Assembly: GCA_947631485.1 (NCBI GenBank)
Contig: CANRLJ010000022.1
Location: 1-10,205 of the forward strand
Direction of reading: 5' to 3'
DNA length: 10,205 bases
DNA from: an uncultured Clostridia bacterium
Lineage (GTDB): Bacteria > Bacillota > Clostridia > Christensenellales > UBA1242
Shown: piece by piece, positions 3,392-10,205 of the stretch
How positions within the stretch are numbered: position 1 is the first letter of the stretch
Layout of the letters: each line of letters opens with the position of its first letter
The notes under the pieces: generated by a model
Database searches by the model: none
The model's input: the letters and a program-made list of their open reading frames with translations, nothing else
What the model was told of the DNA's origin: nothing
Program-made: the position numbers and the translations under genes

Positions 3392-4555
3392 ATGAAAGAC
3401 AACATTATTCGTTTTAAGAAACAAAAACTTTTCAAAAATGCCTCTTTGATAAATCTTGAAAGTGGGCAAGTGGATTTAGTAGATATCCTTGTTGAAGATG
3501 ACAAAATTTCAAGGATTGAGCCATCAATTGAGGATGTGTTTTATGATGTTGAGGACTTGGAGGGAAACTTGGTTTTGCCTCCTTTTGCCAATATGTTTTG
3601 CGACAGTGATGAGGCTTTGAAAAGCACATACAATCTTGAAATAGATGGCGAAATAAATGTTGGCGAAACCGTGAAGTTTGACAACTTTTTCAAAGTTTAT
3701 GGTGGCACTGGGCTTAAGAGTGACACTTTTATGAAAATAAACAACTTTGTCATGATGAAACTTAAAAACTATCTGGCGGGCGCTGTGTTTGTTAATGACC
3801 TTGCACAAAATGAATATTCCGACCATAGATTTGAACTTTTGCAAAACATACAAGACCTGGACGAAAAACAACTTGATGCACTGTGCCAAAAATTTCACAC
3901 AAATTGGACACTTCCGTTTCTTAAGGTTGGGCAAACTTTGGAAGAACTTGGAACACTTGACAAGATGTATAAAAAACCACTTCCACTTGTGCTTGAGGAT
4001 TTTGGATTTTTGGATTTCAGCCCAGCAATCATAGGTGGAAACTGCTTTGAAAAAGACGAACTTGAAACCCTAGAGCAATATGGTTGCACCTTTGTGGTCA
4101 CTCCGTTTGATGACGGAAAGGAGGGCAGAAGGCCGACAAACCTCATCAGGCTTAAGAATATGGATTTTACAATCTGTTTGGGCAGCGGAAACGCCTTTGA
4201 AATTGACTTTTTTGAATATATGAGGATTATGGTCATGCAGATGCGCAGCATGTTTGAAAGCAAGGATGTTTTTTCTGAGAAGGATGCCCTTGTCATTGCG
4301 CTGGCAGCAAACAAAAGCCTGTGCGTTGGAGATGTGGCAAGTTTCATCGTTGTTAAAAATGACCTTTCGCTTTATGATGACATCTACAAAACCTTGGTGT
4401 GGGGCAAGACGAACGCCGACCTTGTCATGACAGTTGACTGTGGCGAAGTAGTTGTGAAAAATGGGAAAATTGCTATACAAGAAGTGCCAAATTATGATAG
4501 ACTTAAGTATATAACAAAATTATTTACAAGGAGAAACAAAGAAGATGACAATTAA
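3392..4555 (+). CDS. Amidohydrolase-fold protein lacking the metal-binding residues (predicted pseudoenzyme)
   Basis: The 387-residue protein resembles the amidohydrolase superfamily (deaminase, ATZ/TRZ or MtaD-like) from end to end. An N-terminal composite-sandwich segment, LFKNASLINLESGQ...VDILVEDDKISRI, occupies about 13-42. The C-terminal segment ending ADLVMTVDCGEVVVKNGKI is the usual return of that domain. The catalytic positions are replaced: the HxH after strand 1 becomes F69-C-D71, the next His and the Glu of the HxxE region become K178 and Q181, the following His pair becomes G215 and C218, and the metal Asp of LGTDG becomes G266 in LGSGN. Enzymatic hydrolysis is therefore unlikely, and a binding or structural role is inferred. 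The ATG at 3392 follows GGTGA (3383-3387); an ATG at 3371 would be almost leaderless. The 3' end overlaps tex by 11 bases, suggesting translational coupling. Confidence 0.75.
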   Translation: MKDNIIRFKKQKLFKNASLINLESGQVDLVDILVEDDKISRIEPSIEDVFYDVEDLEGNLVLPPFANMFCDSDEALKSTYNLEIDGEINVGETVKFDNFFKVYGGTGLKSDTFMKINNFVMMKLKNYLAGAVFVNDLAQNEYSDHRFELLQNIQDLDEKQLDALCQKFHTNWTLPFLKVGQTLEELGTLDKMYKKPLPLVLEDFGFLDFSPAIIGGNCFEKDELETLEQYGCTFVVTPFDDGKEGRRPTNLIRLKNMDFTICLGSGNAFEIDFFEYMRIMVMQMRSMFESKDVFSEKDALVIALAANKSLCVGDVASFIVVKNDLSLYDDIYKTLVWGKTNADLVMTVDCGEVVVKNGKIAIQEVPNYDRLKYITKLFTRRNKEDDN

Positions 4556-5642
4556 AGAAAGATTATCCAGTGAGTTTGGGTTGCGTGCGGATTACACCGA
4601 AAACATAATAAACCTCATTGATGAAGGAAACACAATTCCGTTTATTGCAAGATACAGAAAGGAGATGCATGGCTCTTGTGACGACCAAGTGCTGAGAAAC
4701 TTTGCGGACAGACTGAAATATCTCAGAAACCTTGACGACGAAAAAGCCAAAGTTGAAAAGGTCATCACCGAACAGGGCAAGTGGACGGAAGAACTTAAAA
4801 AAGCCTTGGAAGAGGCCATGACTCTGACCGAAGTGGAGGACATCTATCGTCCTTACAAGCCAAAGAGAAAGACAAGGGCGTCAGTTGCCATTGCAAAGGG
4901 GCTTGAACCACTTGCGGACATAATTCAGTTGCAATCAAAGGACAAAAAGGTTTTTGAAGAGGCCAAAAACTTTATTACTGAGGAAGTTGCAACAGTTGAG
5001 GACGCCATTGCGGGCGCAAAAGATATCATTGCGGAACGCATTTCAGACAGTGCCGATTTGCGTAAGGAACTGAGAGAAATCATTGCAAACAAGGGCTTTT
5101 TGCAGTGCACACTTTTGGAAAATGAAAACAGCCCAACATATGAGACATATTCTGGCTTTAAGCAAGAGATAAAAAATCTTCCAAGTCACAGAGTGCTTGC
5201 CATAAATCGTGGTGAGAAGGAAAAGTGCTTAAAGGTTGAGGTTTTGATTGACGAAAAATTGACTATTCCTGTGATTGAAAAGGAATTTAAGAAAGACAAC
5301 GAGGACACCAATGCCATCATGGACGAGGTTGTTGCTGACGCATATGAAAGATTGCTTTTTCCTGCCCTTGAAAGAGAGTGCAGAAACAATCTGACAGATA
5401 TGGCTGACGAGCAGGCAATCAAGATGTTTGAAGTAAACTTGAAACCGCTTCTCATGGAAAGCCCGCTTAAAAACAACATCATCCTTGGCTTTGACCCAGG
5501 CTATCATAATGGATGCAAGATTGCTGTCATTGACAAAAACGGCTCTGTTTTGGACACAACAGTTGTTTATCCAACTCCTCCAAGAAACAAGACGGAAGAG
5601 GCAATGGAAAAACTTAAGAGTATGTCGATATTATTGCCATAG
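4545..5642 (+). CDS. tex: Tex-family S1 RNA-binding protein, N-terminal part (frameshifted)
   Basis: This frame encodes the first 358 residues of Tex, then seven out-of-frame residues and a premature TAG at 5640. Tex is a cytoplasmic nucleic-acid-binding protein of the Spt6/Tex family linked to transcription. The N-terminal helical Tex domain is recognisable by IPFIARYRKEMHGSCDDQ (about 31-48), VEDIYRPYKPKRKTRA (about 96-111) and the long helical stretch to about 300. The YqgF/RuvX-like nuclease-fold domain starts at NNIILGFDPGYHNGCK (about 309-325) and is interrupted. The ATG follows AAGGAG (4528-4533) at an 11-base spacing and overlaps the upstream gene by 11 bases. Dropping one G from an ancestral AAGGAG at about 5616-5620 explains the break. 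The second half remains fully open in the next frame, so the intact gene would span 4545-6688 (714 residues). Confidence 0.9.
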   Translation: MTIKERLSSEFGLRADYTENIINLIDEGNTIPFIARYRKEMHGSCDDQVLRNFADRLKYLRNLDDEKAKVEKVITEQGKWTEELKKALEEAMTLTEVEDIYRPYKPKRKTRASVAIAKGLEPLADIIQLQSKDKKVFEEAKNFITEEVATVEDAIAGAKDIIAERISDSADLRKELREIIANKGFLQCTLLENENSPTYETYSGFKQEIKNLPSHRVLAINRGEKEKCLKVEVLIDEKLTIPVIEKEFKKDNEDTNAIMDEVVADAYERLLFPALERECRNNLTDMADEQAIKMFEVNLKPLLMESPLKNNIILGFDPGYHNGCKIAVIDKNGSVLDTTVVYPTPPRNKTEEAMEKLKSMSILLP

Positions 5643-6688
5643 GAAATGGCACGGCATCAAAAGAGAGCGAGATTTTTGTTGCCGAACTCATCAAACATGT
5701 AAATCATCCAGTCAGTTATGCTGTTGTAAGCGAGGCGGGTGCGTCTGTTTATTCTGCATCAAAACTTGCCGCTGAAGAATTTCCTGAATATGATGTCAAT
5801 TTGAGGAGTGCCGTTTCAATTGCCAGACGACTTCAAGACCCACTTGCAGAACTTATTAAGATTGATGTCAAATCGATTGGCGTTGGGCAATATCAACACG
5901 ACATGCCACAAAATCGTTTGACAGAGGTCTTGACAGGGGTTGTTGAGGACTGCGTTAACAGTGTGGGAGTTGATCTTAACACCGCATCTCCAAGTTTGCT
6001 GTCATATGTTTCTGGTCTGAACATGGGAATTGCCAAAAACATCGTTGCGTTTAGGACAAAAAACAAAGGATTTAAGTCGCGCGAAGAGTTGTTGTCCGTT
6101 CCAAAACTTGGGCAAAAGGCATATGAGCAGTGCGCCGGCTTTTTGAGAGTTGTTGGTGGCGAAAATGTGCTTGACAACACTGCTGTGCACCCAGAAAGTT
6201 ATGAGGGTGCAAGAAAACTCTTAAAACTTTTCAACTTGACAGAAGATGATGTGAAAAACAACAACCTTGTTCTCTTGCCAAAAATGGTTGAACAAAAGGG
6301 CGAAAAGAAGGTTGCAGAGGAGTGTGGAATTGGCGTGCCTACTTTAAATGACATCACAAACGAGTTGTTAAAGCCAGGCAGAGACATCCGTGAAAGCATG
6401 CCAAAACCTGTGCTGAGAAGCGATGTTATTCATATGGAGGACCTTAAAGAAGGCATGATTTTTGATGGCGTTGTCAGAAATGTTGTTGACTTTGGTGCGT
6501 TTGTGGACATCGGCGTGCATCAGGACGGCCTCGTGCACATCTCACAACTGTCAGACGGGTTTGTTAAGCATCCAAGCGATGTCGTTAAGGTTGGCGACAA
6601 GGTCAAGGTGAAAGTCACAGCCGTTGACCTGAACAAAAAGCGAATCTCACTAACCATGAAAGGCATTGAAGAGGACGAAGACAAATGA
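5618..6688 (+). CDS. tex: Tex-family S1 RNA-binding protein, C-terminal part (frameshifted)
   Basis: This is the rest of Tex, in the -1 frame relative to the upstream part; in fused numbering it is residues 359-714. It restarts inside the YqgF domain with EYVDIIAIGNGTAS, then has VSYAVVSEAGASVYSASKLA. A helix-hairpin-helix region follows (about 470-560, with DLNTASPSLLSYVSGL and FKSREELLSVPKLGQKAYEQ). A complete S1 RNA-binding domain ends it (about 635-707: GMIFDGVVRNVVDFGAFVDIG, DGLVHISQLSD, VKVKVTAVDLNKKRISLTMK). The total of 714 residues is typical of Tex. The first possible start in this frame is TTG at 5801 without a good ribosome binding site, so this part is probably not made as a separate protein. 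The 357 codons of open, well-conserved frame point to a very recent mutation or a one-base sequencing or assembly error. The stop overlaps the next ATG as ATGA. Confidence 0.9.
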   Translation, partial: EYVDIIAIGNGTASKESEIFVAELIKHVNHPVSYAVVSEAGASVYSASKLAAEEFPEYDVNLRSAVSIARRLQDPLAELIKIDVKSIGVGQYQHDMPQNRLTEVLTGVVEDCVNSVGVDLNTASPSLLSYVSGLNMGIAKNIVAFRTKNKGFKSREELLSVPKLGQKAYEQCAGFLRVVGGENVLDNTAVHPESYEGARKLLKLFNLTEDDVKNNNLVLLPKMVEQKGEKKVAEECGIGVPTLNDITNELLKPGRDIRESMPKPVLRSDVIHMEDLKEGMIFDGVVRNVVDFGAFVDIGVHQDGLVHISQLSDGFVKHPSDVVKVGDKVKVKVTAVDLNKKRISLTMKGIEEDEDK

Positions 6689-6834
6689 GCGAAAAAGTTT
6701 GTCCAAAATGTGGAACATCCGTGAAGGAAATTTTGGAGACGGGCTTTGTTGGCTGTGAAAAATGTTACGATTTGCCAGAAATAAAGGCAGCCATTGACAA
6801 AATCTATGGCGGCAAAAGGCACAAGGCGTCTTAA
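6685..6834 (+). CDS. mcsA: Mini-McsA: 49-residue single zinc-finger McsA-like protein
   Basis: A short gene whose ATG overlaps the tex stop (ATGA at 6685-6688). It encodes MSEKVCPKCG...GCEKCYD...KRHKAS. The Cys pattern C6-x2-C9-x14-C24-x2-C27, with the Gly before C24 and Tyr after C27, matches the second zinc finger of Bacillus McsA (CPKCG...GCSECY, also 14 residues between pairs). The following helix and the GGKRHKA tail resemble the stretch after it in McsA. McsA is the zinc-binding activator of the arginine kinase McsB and normally has about 180 residues: a first zinc finger, this second one, and a C-terminal UVR motif. Here only the central module remains. No candidate for the missing parts was seen nearby. 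With mcsB and clpC downstream, a McsB-partner role is a reasonable inference, although another small zinc-ribbon function cannot be excluded. Confidence 0.75.
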   Translation: MSEKVCPKCGTSVKEILETGFVGCEKCYDLPEIKAAIDKIYGGKRHKAS

Positions 6835-6854: not shown

Positions 6855-7361
6855 ATGAACAATTTGTATCTGATTACAGGCCCTGCAGGCGTCGGCAAAA
6901 GCACAATCTCGAAGAGTTTGGCGAGCGCTCTTGAAAAAAGCGTACTAATTGAAGGTGACGACATCTATCATTTGGTGGTTGGTGGATATGTCAGCCCGTG
7001 GAAAGATGGAAATCATCTGAAATTCTTTTGGAAAAATTGTCAAGATTCGGTTCGAAACAGCATTAAAGCGGGTTATGATGTGGTTTTCAATTATATCATT
7101 TCAAAAAAAGACTTGGCAAGATGGAAAAGATGTTTCAAAGATTATAAAATTAAATTTGTGGTTTTGATTGTTGATGAAAAAACTTTGATTGAAAGAGACA
7201 AACAAAGGCCTGTTGACTGTCAAATGGGCGAAAGGAGTTTAATCCTTTTAAGAGAGGTGCTTGAAGAGAATTTTGATGAACACAATATTTTGAATTCAAG
7301 CAAACTTAACATCAAACAAACAACACAAAAAATACTTCAAGATGACAGATTTTTGATTTAA
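6855..7361 (+). CDS. Small P-loop kinase (AAA_33-like) inserted between mcsA and mcsB
   Basis: The 168-residue protein has a Walker A motif GPAGVGKST at 9-17, an acidic EGDDIYHL segment at 33-40 as in small-molecule kinases of the gluconate/shikimate kinase type, and a hydrophobic strand FVVLIVDE (101-108). A lid-like segment RDKQRPVDCQMGER (114-127) supplies likely phosphate-contacting arginines. This fits AAA_33-like P-loop phosphotransferases in the cytoplasm; the acceptor (sugar, nucleoside, antibiotic or other) cannot be deduced. It lies 20 bases after mini-mcsA and 12 before mcsB, so it is probably co-transcribed with both. Its base composition looks more A/T-rich (many ATT, AAT and AAA codons) than tex or clpC, which suggests later insertion into an old mcsA-mcsB pair. 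A toxin-like or antibiotic-modifying role is possible but unsupported. Confidence 0.7.
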   Translation: MNNLYLITGPAGVGKSTISKSLASALEKSVLIEGDDIYHLVVGGYVSPWKDGNHLKFFWKNCQDSVRNSIKAGYDVVFNYIISKKDLARWKRCFKDYKIKFVVLIVDEKTLIERDKQRPVDCQMGERSLILLREVLEENFDEHNILNSSKLNIKQTTQKILQDDRFLI

Positions 7362-7373
7362 AAGGAATAGAGT

Positions 7374-8387
7374 TTGAGCGAAGAGTTTGAGGACATTGCA
7401 ATTTCATCCAGAATCAGGCTGGCACGAAATGTGTCAGGCTTTAATTTTTTCACAAAACTTACAAATGACAAGGATGCGGAATTTATTGTTCGTGCCATTT
7501 CAAATGCAATAGCCAAGTTTGACGACTTGGAAATTTTCAAACTGAAAAACCTTACTCTAAACGAGTGCAACGCCTTGCTTGAAAGGCACATCATAAGCAA
7601 AGAACTCATAGAAAACAAAGACATCTCTGCCGTGGCGCTTTCGCCAGACGAACACCTCATCATCATGATGAACGAAGAGGACCACATAAGAGAGCAGTGC
7701 ATTGTGAACGGATTTAACCTCTACAAGCCGTTTCGAGAGATAAAGCGTTTTGATGACCTCTTGCTTTCTGAGGTTGATGTGGCATATTCAAATGAATATG
7801 GCTTCATCACTTCAAGTCCAGCAAACCTTGGCACAGGCATGAGGGCATCAGTCTTACTTTTCTTGCCTGCCATTGTGCGAAACGGAGATATCGAACTCAT
7901 CAAAAAAGAGGCACGCTCGCTTGGACATACTGTGCGTGGGCTTTATGGCGAGGGCACACAAAATTATGGGGCATTTTATCAAATCTCAAATCAAAACTCG
8001 TTGGGGCTTTCGGAAGAGGAGATAATTGACAAGGTTTCGGACTATGTCTTTCAAATTTGCGAGATGGAAATGTCCGCCAGAGAAGACATCCTTGCGGCAA
8101 GTCACGACAAACTGATTGACGAGGTTTACAGGTGTTTGGGAGAACTTGAGGAGTGCTTTTTGCTTGATGAAAAAGAAATGCTTGAAAAACTTTCGCTCAT
8201 CAAGTTTGGGCATGTGTTGGGCTTTTTGAAGATAAGTGATGTCAGGGCGTTTGACAAACTTTCGATTGAGGGGCAAAGTGCAAATTTGCGAGAAATTGAA
8301 AATTTTTCAGATATTAAGCAGGAAGATTTGAAAAGAAGTGAGTATATAAATAAAAAAATAAAAGAATTGGTTTCAAAAACCAAATAA
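7374..8387 (+). CDS. mcsB: Protein arginine kinase McsB
   Basis: McsB belongs to the phosphagen-kinase fold and phosphorylates arginine side chains, tagging proteins for ClpC-ClpP. Recognisable segments in this 337-residue protein are ISSRIRLARNV (10-20), MNEEDHIREQC (99-109), ITSSPANLGTGMRAS (145-159) and VRGLYGEGTQNYGAFYQISNQ (187-207). The N-terminus is about 15 residues shorter than in Bacillus. The start is TTG: an in-frame TAG lies two codons upstream, no other nearby start exists, and AAAGGA (7361-7366) is 7 bases away. Two oddities: the conserved reactive Cys of TSCP (C167 in B. subtilis McsB) is S148, and the C-terminal RDxxRA phosphoarginine-sensing motif reads EDLKRS (317-322). ATP- and Arg-binding segments look otherwise intact. 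It lies 13 bases before clpC. Confidence 0.93.
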   Translation: MSEEFEDIAISSRIRLARNVSGFNFFTKLTNDKDAEFIVRAISNAIAKFDDLEIFKLKNLTLNECNALLERHIISKELIENKDISAVALSPDEHLIIMMNEEDHIREQCIVNGFNLYKPFREIKRFDDLLLSEVDVAYSNEYGFITSSPANLGTGMRASVLLFLPAIVRNGDIELIKKEARSLGHTVRGLYGEGTQNYGAFYQISNQNSLGLSEEEIIDKVSDYVFQICEMEMSAREDILAASHDKLIDEVYRCLGELEECFLLDEKEMLEKLSLIKFGHVLGFLKISDVRAFDKLSIEGQSANLREIENFSDIKQEDLKRSEYINKKIKELVSKTK

Positions 8388-8400
8388 AAGGGGTGAAAAA

Positions 8401-10205
8401 ATGGCTTTAAATAACAGTTTGTTTTCAGACAGCATCGAAAAAGTTATTAAAAACGCAAGCAAAATTGCGCTTAGATTTGGAAGCAACCTTGTTGGAACAG
8501 AGCACATATTGTATGGGCTTGTCAGTGTTTCGGACTGCACGGCAAGCAAACTTTTGGGCGGCTATGGAGTGACGGAAGCGGCACTGTTTGAGGTGTTTGA
8601 AGAGTCCTCAAGCGGCGTTACACTTTTTGGAAGCGTGGAACTCACTCCACGAACAAAAGAGTTGTTTCAAGTGGCTCAGCAGGTTGCAATGGACATGGGG
8701 CACTCATTTATTGGCACAGAGCACCTTCTTCTTGCAATTCTTTCAAACAAAAGTTGTTATGCCACAAGAATTTTGGAAAGCATTTTCAATGTCAATGTTG
8801 AGGAATTGAAAGTTAAGGTTATGTCAACCTTGCAGATTTCTCGAGGTGAGCCAAACAAAGCCCAAGAAGAAAAAAAGAGCCAAGTTGGAAGCAATTTGCC
8901 TGAAAAACTGTTGGAAATGGGCAGTGACATCACCTTGAAGGCAAGACAGCACAAACTTGACCCAGTCATTGGCAGAGAGGACGAAATTCAAAGACTGATT
9001 GAAATTCTTTGCAGAAAGACAAAAAATAACCCATGCCTCATCGGAGAGGCAGGTGTCGGCAAGACTGCTGTTGTTGAGGGGCTTGCACAGGCGATTGCAA
9101 GTGGGGATGTTCCAGAGCAACTGAAAGATAAAAACATCTTTGCACTTGAAATTGGTGGACTTATGGCAGGCACAAAATATCGTGGCCAGATGGAAGAAAA
9201 ACTGAAAGACACCATCGAAACAATCATTGAAAACGGAAACATTATTGTGTTTATTGATGAAATTCACACTTTGGCGCAGGCAGGAAGCGAGAAGGGGGAA
9301 ACCAGCCCTGCGGACATGCTTAAACCATACCTTGCAAGAGGAGAACTGCAAACCATCGGTGCAACAACCACAGATGAATACCGAAAATACATCGAAACCG
9401 ACAAGGCATTGGAGCGAAGATTTCAGCCTGTGATGGTCAATCCTCCATCGGTTGAACAAACCATAGAAATTTTGAGGGGACTGAAAGACACCTATGAGGC
9501 GTTCCACAACATAATCATCACAAATGAGGCCATTGAGGCGGCAGCCAATTTGTCGGACAGATATATTTCCGACAGAAGTTTGCCGGACAAGGCGATTGAC
9601 CTTATTGATGAGGCATGTTCTCGTGCAAAGGTCAACTTCACCCTAAAGCCACAAAAGGTGAGAGATTTGGAGGACAAGATTAAAACTTTGTCAGCAAGCA
9701 GAGATGAGGCATCACTGCAAAGAAACTATGAAAAAGCGGCAAAGTTGCAGTCTGAAATCATCAATTTGGAAAACGACCTGAAGGCACACAACGATTCCAT
9801 TGTAAAAAAGAGTGGCAGCAATCAGATTGGAGAAAACGAAATTGCAGAAGTTGTTTCAAAGTGGACAGGAATTCCTGTTACAAAACTGACAGAGGGCGAA
9901 AAGGAAAAACTTGTTCATTTGGAGGAAATTTTGCACAAGCGTGTTGTTGGGCAAAATGAGGCAATAAACGCTGTTTCAAAGGCAATCAGGCGTGCAAGAG
10001 TGGGGCTTCAAGACAATAAACGACCAATCGGCTCTTTCTTGTTTATGGGTCCAACCGGTGTCGGCAAGACCGAACTTTCAAAGGCGATTGCAGAGGCGTT
10101 GTTTGACAACGAAAACAACATTATTCGAATTGATATGAGCGAATATATGGAAAGCCACACTGTTTCAAAACTCATCGGCTCGCCTCCGGGATATGTTGGC
10201 TTTGA
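8401..10205 (+). CDS. clpC: ATP-dependent Clp protease ATP-binding subunit ClpC (partial, 3' end missing)
   Basis: The open frame runs off the right edge after 601 codons; ClpC is about 810 residues. ClpC is an AAA+ unfoldase that feeds proteins to ClpP. The N-domain (about 1-145) has two Clp_N repeats, each with GTEH (E34 and E107), equivalent to the two Glu that bind phosphoarginine in Bacillus ClpC. D1 has Walker A GEAGVGKT (215-222), Walker B IIVFIDE (281-287) and the Arg-finger region ALERRF (336-341). The middle domain contains a UVR-like YEKAAKLQSEI (443-453), which identifies ClpC rather than ClpB or ClpA. D2 Walker A is GPTGVGKT (550-557), followed by the start of the SPPGYVG pore-loop region. 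The ATG follows AAGGGGTGA (8388-8396). It is the last visible gene of the mcs cluster. Confidence 0.97.
   Translation, partial: MALNNSLFSDSIEKVIKNASKIALRFGSNLVGTEHILYGLVSVSDCTASKLLGGYGVTEAALFEVFEESSSGVTLFGSVELTPRTKELFQVAQQVAMDMGHSFIGTEHLLLAILSNKSCYATRILESIFNVNVEELKVKVMSTLQISRGEPNKAQEEKKSQVGSNLPEKLLEMGSDITLKARQHKLDPVIGREDEIQRLIEILCRKTKNNPCLIGEAGVGKTAVVEGLAQAIASGDVPEQLKDKNIFALEIGGLMAGTKYRGQMEEKLKDTIETIIENGNIIVFIDEIHTLAQAGSEKGETSPADMLKPYLARGELQTIGATTTDEYRKYIETDKALERRFQPVMVNPPSVEQTIEILRGLKDTYEAFHNIIITNEAIEAAANLSDRYISDRSLPDKAIDLIDEACSRAKVNFTLKPQKVRDLEDKIKTLSASRDEASLQRNYEKAAKLQSEIINLENDLKAHNDSIVKKSGSNQIGENEIAEVVSKWTGIPVTKLTEGEKEKLVHLEEILHKRVVGQNEAINAVSKAIRRARVGLQDNKRPIGSFLFMGPTGVGKTELSKAIAEALFDNENNIIRIDMSEYMESHTVSKLIGSPPGYVGF

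Follow-up and report, generated by a model that had tools for sequence, protein, structure and literature searches.

A conserved 49-residue homologue of the second McsA zinc finger is encoded upstream of mcsB in a genus of gut Clostridia

A 10,205-nucleotide stretch of DNA from an uncultured Clostridia bacterium (contig CANRLJ010000022.1 of assembly GCA_947631485.1; GTDB lineage Christensenellales, UBA1242), referred to here as the window, carries a gene for a 49-residue protein at positions 6685 to 6834 of the plus strand. The protein, which we call mini-McsA, represents by homology only the second of the two McsA zinc fingers (ZnF2): the first zinc finger (ZnF1) and the C-terminal UVR motif are absent. 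Its gene is under purifying selection and is paired across the genus with mcsB, which encodes a protein-arginine kinase. One review reports that the second zinc domain of McsA and the loop after it mediate binding to the McsB kinase domain and that McsA raises McsB activity (PMC12387690, citing Arifuzzaman 2024); in another, the C-terminal McsA zinc finger is described as meeting McsB loop Y147-Y153 and orienting Cys157 (PMC12467219, citing Lu 2025). Mini-McsA covers no more than this unit and is likely a stand-alone ZnF2 plus loop that docks on McsB and keeps the kinase active.

Results

Profile-profile comparison matched mini-McsA to McsA ZnF2 with a probability of 98.9% and an E value of 2e-17, and all matches to its predicted fold with a probability above 0.9 were McsA chains of McsA-McsB complexes. 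Like ZnF2, the protein consists of CxxC-x14-CxxC followed by a His loop; Cys6, Cys9, Cys24, and Cys27 are the predicted zinc ligands, and Lys44 and His46 are invariant in its tail. A preliminary description based on the sequence had proposed that both the Cys spacing and the flanking residues match ZnF2 exactly. The spacing is indeed that of ZnF2 in 8wtb and 8gqd, but the flanks are not exact, with identity to solved McsAs of 25 to 33% in the fold alignments. The score of mini-McsA against NF053706, the equivalog model for full-length McsA, was 20.1 bits, under the curated cut-off of 210 bits; in a six-frame search, this cut-off was reached by none of 151 genomes of the order and none of 14 control genomes, including B. 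subtilis.

A search of 5.8 billion proteins yielded 29 homologues, 28 of them 46 to 55 amino acids long and one of 85 amino acids. None has a named annotation in any source, making mini-mcsA a conserved gene without a name. The four Cys residues, Thr19 to Glu25, Tyr28, and His46 are invariant across the 30 aligned sequences, and the four Cys residues, K44, and H46 are kept in all 37 sequences used to measure selection (the window plus 36 loci of the genus). The median ratio of nonsynonymous to synonymous differences (pN/pS) over 666 pairs was 0.25. Because synonymous sites are almost saturated (median pS, 0.69), the 137 pairs whose pS lies between 0.05 and 0.6 are more informative; their median was 0.28 and their maximum 0.52. 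The zinc finger varies less than the tail. These results establish mini-mcsA as a real gene under purifying selection.

To place the gene in its genus, we used 101 genomes of these small-genome gut Clostridia (0.6 to 1.5 Mb) and the 36 loci, sets that overlap (e.g., G138 and L020 have an identical mcsB). The short gene was found in 96 of the 101 genomes, in frames of 48 to 85 codons, and tex lies directly upstream at the 36 loci. Of the 65 genomes with a completeness of 90% or more and a contamination of 5% or less, 62 carry the short gene. ZnF1 and UVR are absent genus-wide, as had been noted for the window. All but one of the 96 matches lack an internal stop (G243 has one TAA). mcsB was present in 97 genomes, with four genomes (G190, G193, G239, and G244) having neither gene and a fifth (G237) having no mini-mcsA and an mcsB cut by a contig end. 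CtsR was found in 0 of the 101 genomes. NF053706 matched in 71 of them, by coordinates always on mini-mcsA with one exception, a chance match that has no CxxC pair. Neither the 101 genomes nor the genome from which the window comes (77% complete, 118 contigs) yielded a full-length mcsA, and the recurrence of the short frame in 96 genomes shows that there is no hidden frameshift. The earlier suggestion of a lineage with a reduced McsA is supported.

Gene order was the same in all 36 loci of the genus, one of them from "Candidatus Caccovivens faecavium" (Clostridia), with tex followed by mini-mcsA, at most one further gene, and mcsB; a conserved peptide beside genes unrelated to mcsB, which would have spoken against a link to McsA, was not encountered. 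A 37th locus proved to be a cyanobacterial zinc ribbon, matched over 27 residues inside a 317-amino-acid protein, and is unrelated. mcsB directly follows mini-mcsA in 23 of the 36 loci and is next but one in 12, where the intervening gene is a P-loop kinase gene, as in the window (4 loci), an ADP-ribosylglycohydrolase-like gene (6 loci), or an open reading frame (ORF) of 99 to 100 amino acids (2 loci). These assignments rest on Pfam for one locus of each kind and on sequence likeness for the others. In the remaining locus, that of "Candidatus Caccovivens faecavium," which was also run against Pfam, ADP-ribosylglycohydrolase and McsB form a single 608-amino-acid ORF (L032, 5722 to 7548). The separate ADP-ribosylglycohydrolase-like genes (PF03747) lie in L014 (8159 to 8959), L018, L026, L029, L031, and L034; the Pfam assignments are those of L014 and L032. 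This neighbor raises the possible idea that ADP-ribosyl-arginine and phospho-arginine are connected.

We then compared the McsA domains with the presence of CtsR and McsB in 98 genomes of the family, scoring the 72 fetched loci outside the window's genus that have CtsR, McsB, or both; the domain models used had been derived from families other than this one (cut-offs of at least 15 bits for ZnF2, more than 5 for UVR, and at least 20 for ZnF1). Both proteins were found in 26 genomes, only CtsR in 24, only McsB in 26 (including 4 from the window's genus), and neither in 22. Where both were present, ZnF2 was found at 26 of 26 loci, UVR at 25, and ZnF1 at 13, and the His-loop motif was present in 22. 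Where CtsR was present without McsB, 13 of the 24 loci had no McsA, 4 had ZnF1 and UVR without ZnF2, and 7 kept ZnF2; none of these 7 had the loop motif. Loci with McsB and no CtsR had ZnF2 in 22 of 22 cases, the loop motif in 8, UVR in 5, and ZnF1 in 4. Many stages of McsA erosion are seen among the other genera of the family. ClpC is present at all 24 loci with CtsR and no McsB (L097 to L120).

A repeat of this pattern was predicted for 151 genomes of the order outside the family, and for loci fetched from them, before CtsR was scored there; the McsB and ZnF2 results for the order were available by then, as were 20 full-length McsAs that had served for training. Among 56 cases with both CtsR and McsB, ZnF2 was found in all and UVR in 54. 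With CtsR and no McsB (14 informative of 16), ZnF2 was found in none; 7 had no McsA, 5 had ZnF1 and UVR, and 2 had ZnF1 at the start of ClpC. With McsB and no CtsR (24 informative of 25), ZnF2 was found in all 24 and UVR in 10. Raw Fisher tests, which ignore kinship, gave P values of 5e-15 for ZnF2 with McsB and 1e-7 for UVR with CtsR. Quick trees of CtsR plus ClpC (81 genomes) and of McsB (134 proteins) allowed a correction for kinship. Over 8 independent pairs differing in McsB on the CtsR+ClpC tree, ZnF2 changed in the same direction in 7.5 (mean) and never in the opposite one (median P = 0.008; range, 0.008 to 0.031); neither ZnF1 (P = 0.125) nor UVR (P = 0.5) significantly tracked McsB in these pairs. 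UVR changed in the same direction as CtsR in 2.6 of 5 pairs on the McsB tree and never in the opposite one, which was not significant (P = 0.25). The association of ZnF2 with McsB therefore survives phylogenetic correction, and that of UVR with CtsR is suggestive only. Every examined locus that has McsB also has ZnF2, and loss of McsB goes with loss or erosion of ZnF2.

Besides the window's genus, two others, g93 (63 amino acids) and g131 (77 amino acids), have McsAs consisting of ZnF2 only. These two share a clade of the McsB tree (support, 100) with two genera that keep ZnF1 remnants, and the window's genus (support, 100) falls outside that clade, which indicates that the ZnF2-only state probably arose at least twice. 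ZnF2 also stands at the head of the McsB reading frame in G286 (f1), G030 (f30), and G034, G113, and G141 (f3), these single frames being taken from the assemblies as read. As with mini-McsA, the fused ZnF2 is kept with McsB, UVR is undetected, and CtsR was not found in the genome; unlike mini-McsA, the product is a single polypeptide, and the f3 members retain a ZnF1-like stretch before ZnF2. At two loci, L211 (G079) and L213 (G097), from CtsR-positive, McsB-negative genomes of family f4, a ZnF1-like finger is fused to the N terminus of ClpC.

The expected partner of mini-McsA, McsB, is encoded at positions 7374 to 8387 of the window (plus strand) and has Ser at the position of the catalytic Cys. 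Among 39 distinct McsB proteins of the genus, 38 have Ser at this position and one, that of "Candidatus Caccovivens faecavium," has Asn. Thirteen other columns checked in the ATP:guanido phosphotransferase domain as putatively catalytic (the two Arg residues of SSRIR, EEDH, and further Arg, Pro, Asn, and Glu residues) are kept in 40 of 40 aligned rows. The McsB of the genus is probably active as a kinase. Ser is also found in a relative within the same 14-row clade of the McsB tree (G274), which still has CtsR and an McsA with ZnF1, ZnF2, and a weak UVR. Outside the genus, Ser occurs in 3 other McsBs of the family and Asn or Asp in 11 more. Several of the family McsBs with Asn or Asp are low scoring and divergent, and the divergent ones are possibly pseudokinases.

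All of the window's genes described here lie on the plus strand. The ATG of mini-mcsA shares 4 nucleotides with the TGA stop of tex (ATGA, 6685 to 6688), and a putative ribosome-binding site, AAGAGG, lies inside the end of tex (6669 to 6674). Mini-mcsA had been described as fused translationally to tex; the overlap is real and the two genes may be translationally coupled, but they are not fused. The window's tex changes reading frame between about 5640 and 5801, with Tex_N, the central region, and the start of YqgF at 4545 to 5642, after which the frame breaks, and the HHH and S1 domains in a different frame at 5801 to 6688. An open tex of at least 715 amino acids is present in 33 of the 36 loci of the genus, and the remaining 3 start close to a contig end; the broken frame is either an assembly error or a young pseudogene. 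The P-loop kinase-like gene (AAA_18/AAA_33) between mini-mcsA and mcsB spans 6855 to 7361, and clpC, at 8401 to 10205, continues beyond the window's end.

Discussion

We propose that the lineage lost CtsR together with the ZnF1 and UVR parts of McsA, leaving ZnF2 and a short loop. Mini-McsA would fold around one zinc ion held by its four Cys residues, dock on the kinase domain of McsB, the gene for which lies a short way downstream, and hold the kinase in an active arrangement, upon which arginine-phosphorylated proteins would reach ClpC for degradation. McsA reportedly also helps CtsR to dimerize and repress (PMC12634643), a role that fits the disappearance of the other McsA parts together with CtsR. 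Given that the genus has no CtsR, the role of mini-McsA and McsB is likely general quality control through ClpC. The preliminary description had suggested that this peptide could define a minimal McsB-activating module, a view that homology and co-loss with McsB support well, the activation itself being a prediction.

Could the short gene be something else altogether? A frameshifted or fragmented full-length mcsA might be suspected in a draft metagenome assembly whose tex is frame broken and whose genome is incomplete and in many contigs, but the same short gene recurs across the genus, high-quality genomes included, and the position of tex directly upstream leaves no space for ZnF1; this artifact is in practice refuted. 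Genomes of 0.6 to 1.5 Mb and the many erosion stages of McsA in other genera of the family make a functionless, decaying remnant conceivable. Such decay is very unlikely, however, in view of the median pN/pS of 0.25, the residues invariant in 37 of 37 sequences, the lack of an internal stop in 95 of 96 matches, and the presence of mini-mcsA in every mcsB-bearing genome of the genus except G237, where a contig end truncates mcsB. It is just as improbable that mini-McsA is an unrelated small zinc-ribbon protein sitting in the operon by chance. YhfH (PF14149), a model of 37 positions that covers residues 3 to 27, is the best single Pfam match of the window's protein (E = 3.5e-4; 20.8 bits), but this score is under the gathering score of 27, YhfH matches 2 of 30 members at an E of 0.001 or less, versus 16 of 30 for the NCBIfam McsA model, and profile, fold, position, and co-loss all indicate McsA.

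A more serious alternative is that mini-McsA works with McsB as a redox or zinc switch, or as a brake, rather than as an activator. According to a review (PMC5506225), McsA thiols in B. subtilis sense oxidation and release McsB, and McsA also restrains McsB. The Ser that replaces the catalytic Cys in this genus speaks for such a role as well: ZnF2 must do more than orient a Cys, and the published activation step cannot apply unchanged. On the other side stand the reported binding of ZnF2 and its following loop to McsB and the higher activity reported upon McsA binding (PMC12387690). Co-loss with McsB does not distinguish an activator from a switch or brake. We consider a switch or brake unlikely.

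Taken more widely, our results lead us to lean, by a little, toward McsA as a hub of separable cassettes, with ZnF2 serving McsB and ZnF1 plus UVR serving CtsR or ClpC, on which evolution has performed the deletion mapping. ZnF2 would be kept with McsB, either alone (in the window's genus and, separately, in g93 and g131) or fused to it, and lost or eroded without it. Where CtsR stays and McsB goes, ZnF1 and UVR may persist without ZnF2, or the whole McsA may go; where CtsR goes, they would often erode. One genus has ZnF1 fused to the ClpC N terminus. The 49-residue protein would then be the complete activator of an arginine kinase that is no longer under CtsR control. The single-domain, two-domain, and fused McsAs form a natural deletion series whose steps can be compared with losses of CtsR or McsB, and they lead to a concrete prediction: ZnF1 and UVR act for CtsR or ClpC, not for McsB. 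Mini-McsA itself is a ready-made minimal protein for biochemistry, and its Ser-bearing McsB offers a test of the proposed activation step.

The published picture of McsA, as far as it was surveyed, rests on Bacillus and Staphylococcus proteins. Published structures already indicate ZnF2 as the McsB-binding unit; what is new is a natural stand-alone ZnF2 and the domain-partner pattern around it, and searches of open PMC papers turned up none with a title or opening of the abstract that mentions a single-finger McsA or such a pattern. Like the McsAs of B. subtilis and S. aureus (8wtb/8wtc and 8gqd), mini-McsA has a CxxC-x14-CxxC ZnF2 with its following loop, and its predicted fold resembles the McsB-bound ZnF2 of these structures. 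Unlike them, it has no ZnF1 and no UVR, no CtsR was found in its genus, and the McsB expected to be its partner carries Ser in place of the catalytic Cys. Its gene lies upstream of mcsB and clpC, as does mcsA in the B. subtilis operon ctsR-mcsA-mcsB-clpC (PMC12634643), but the gene upstream is tex rather than ctsR. Mini-McsA has 49 residues, versus 187 in the McsA chain of 8wtb, and residues 4 to 49 of its model align on residues 85 to 133 of the 59-residue McsA chain that accompanies S. aureus McsB in 8gqd. That chain is part of a longer protein, whereas mini-McsA is a natural gene product of nearly equal extent.
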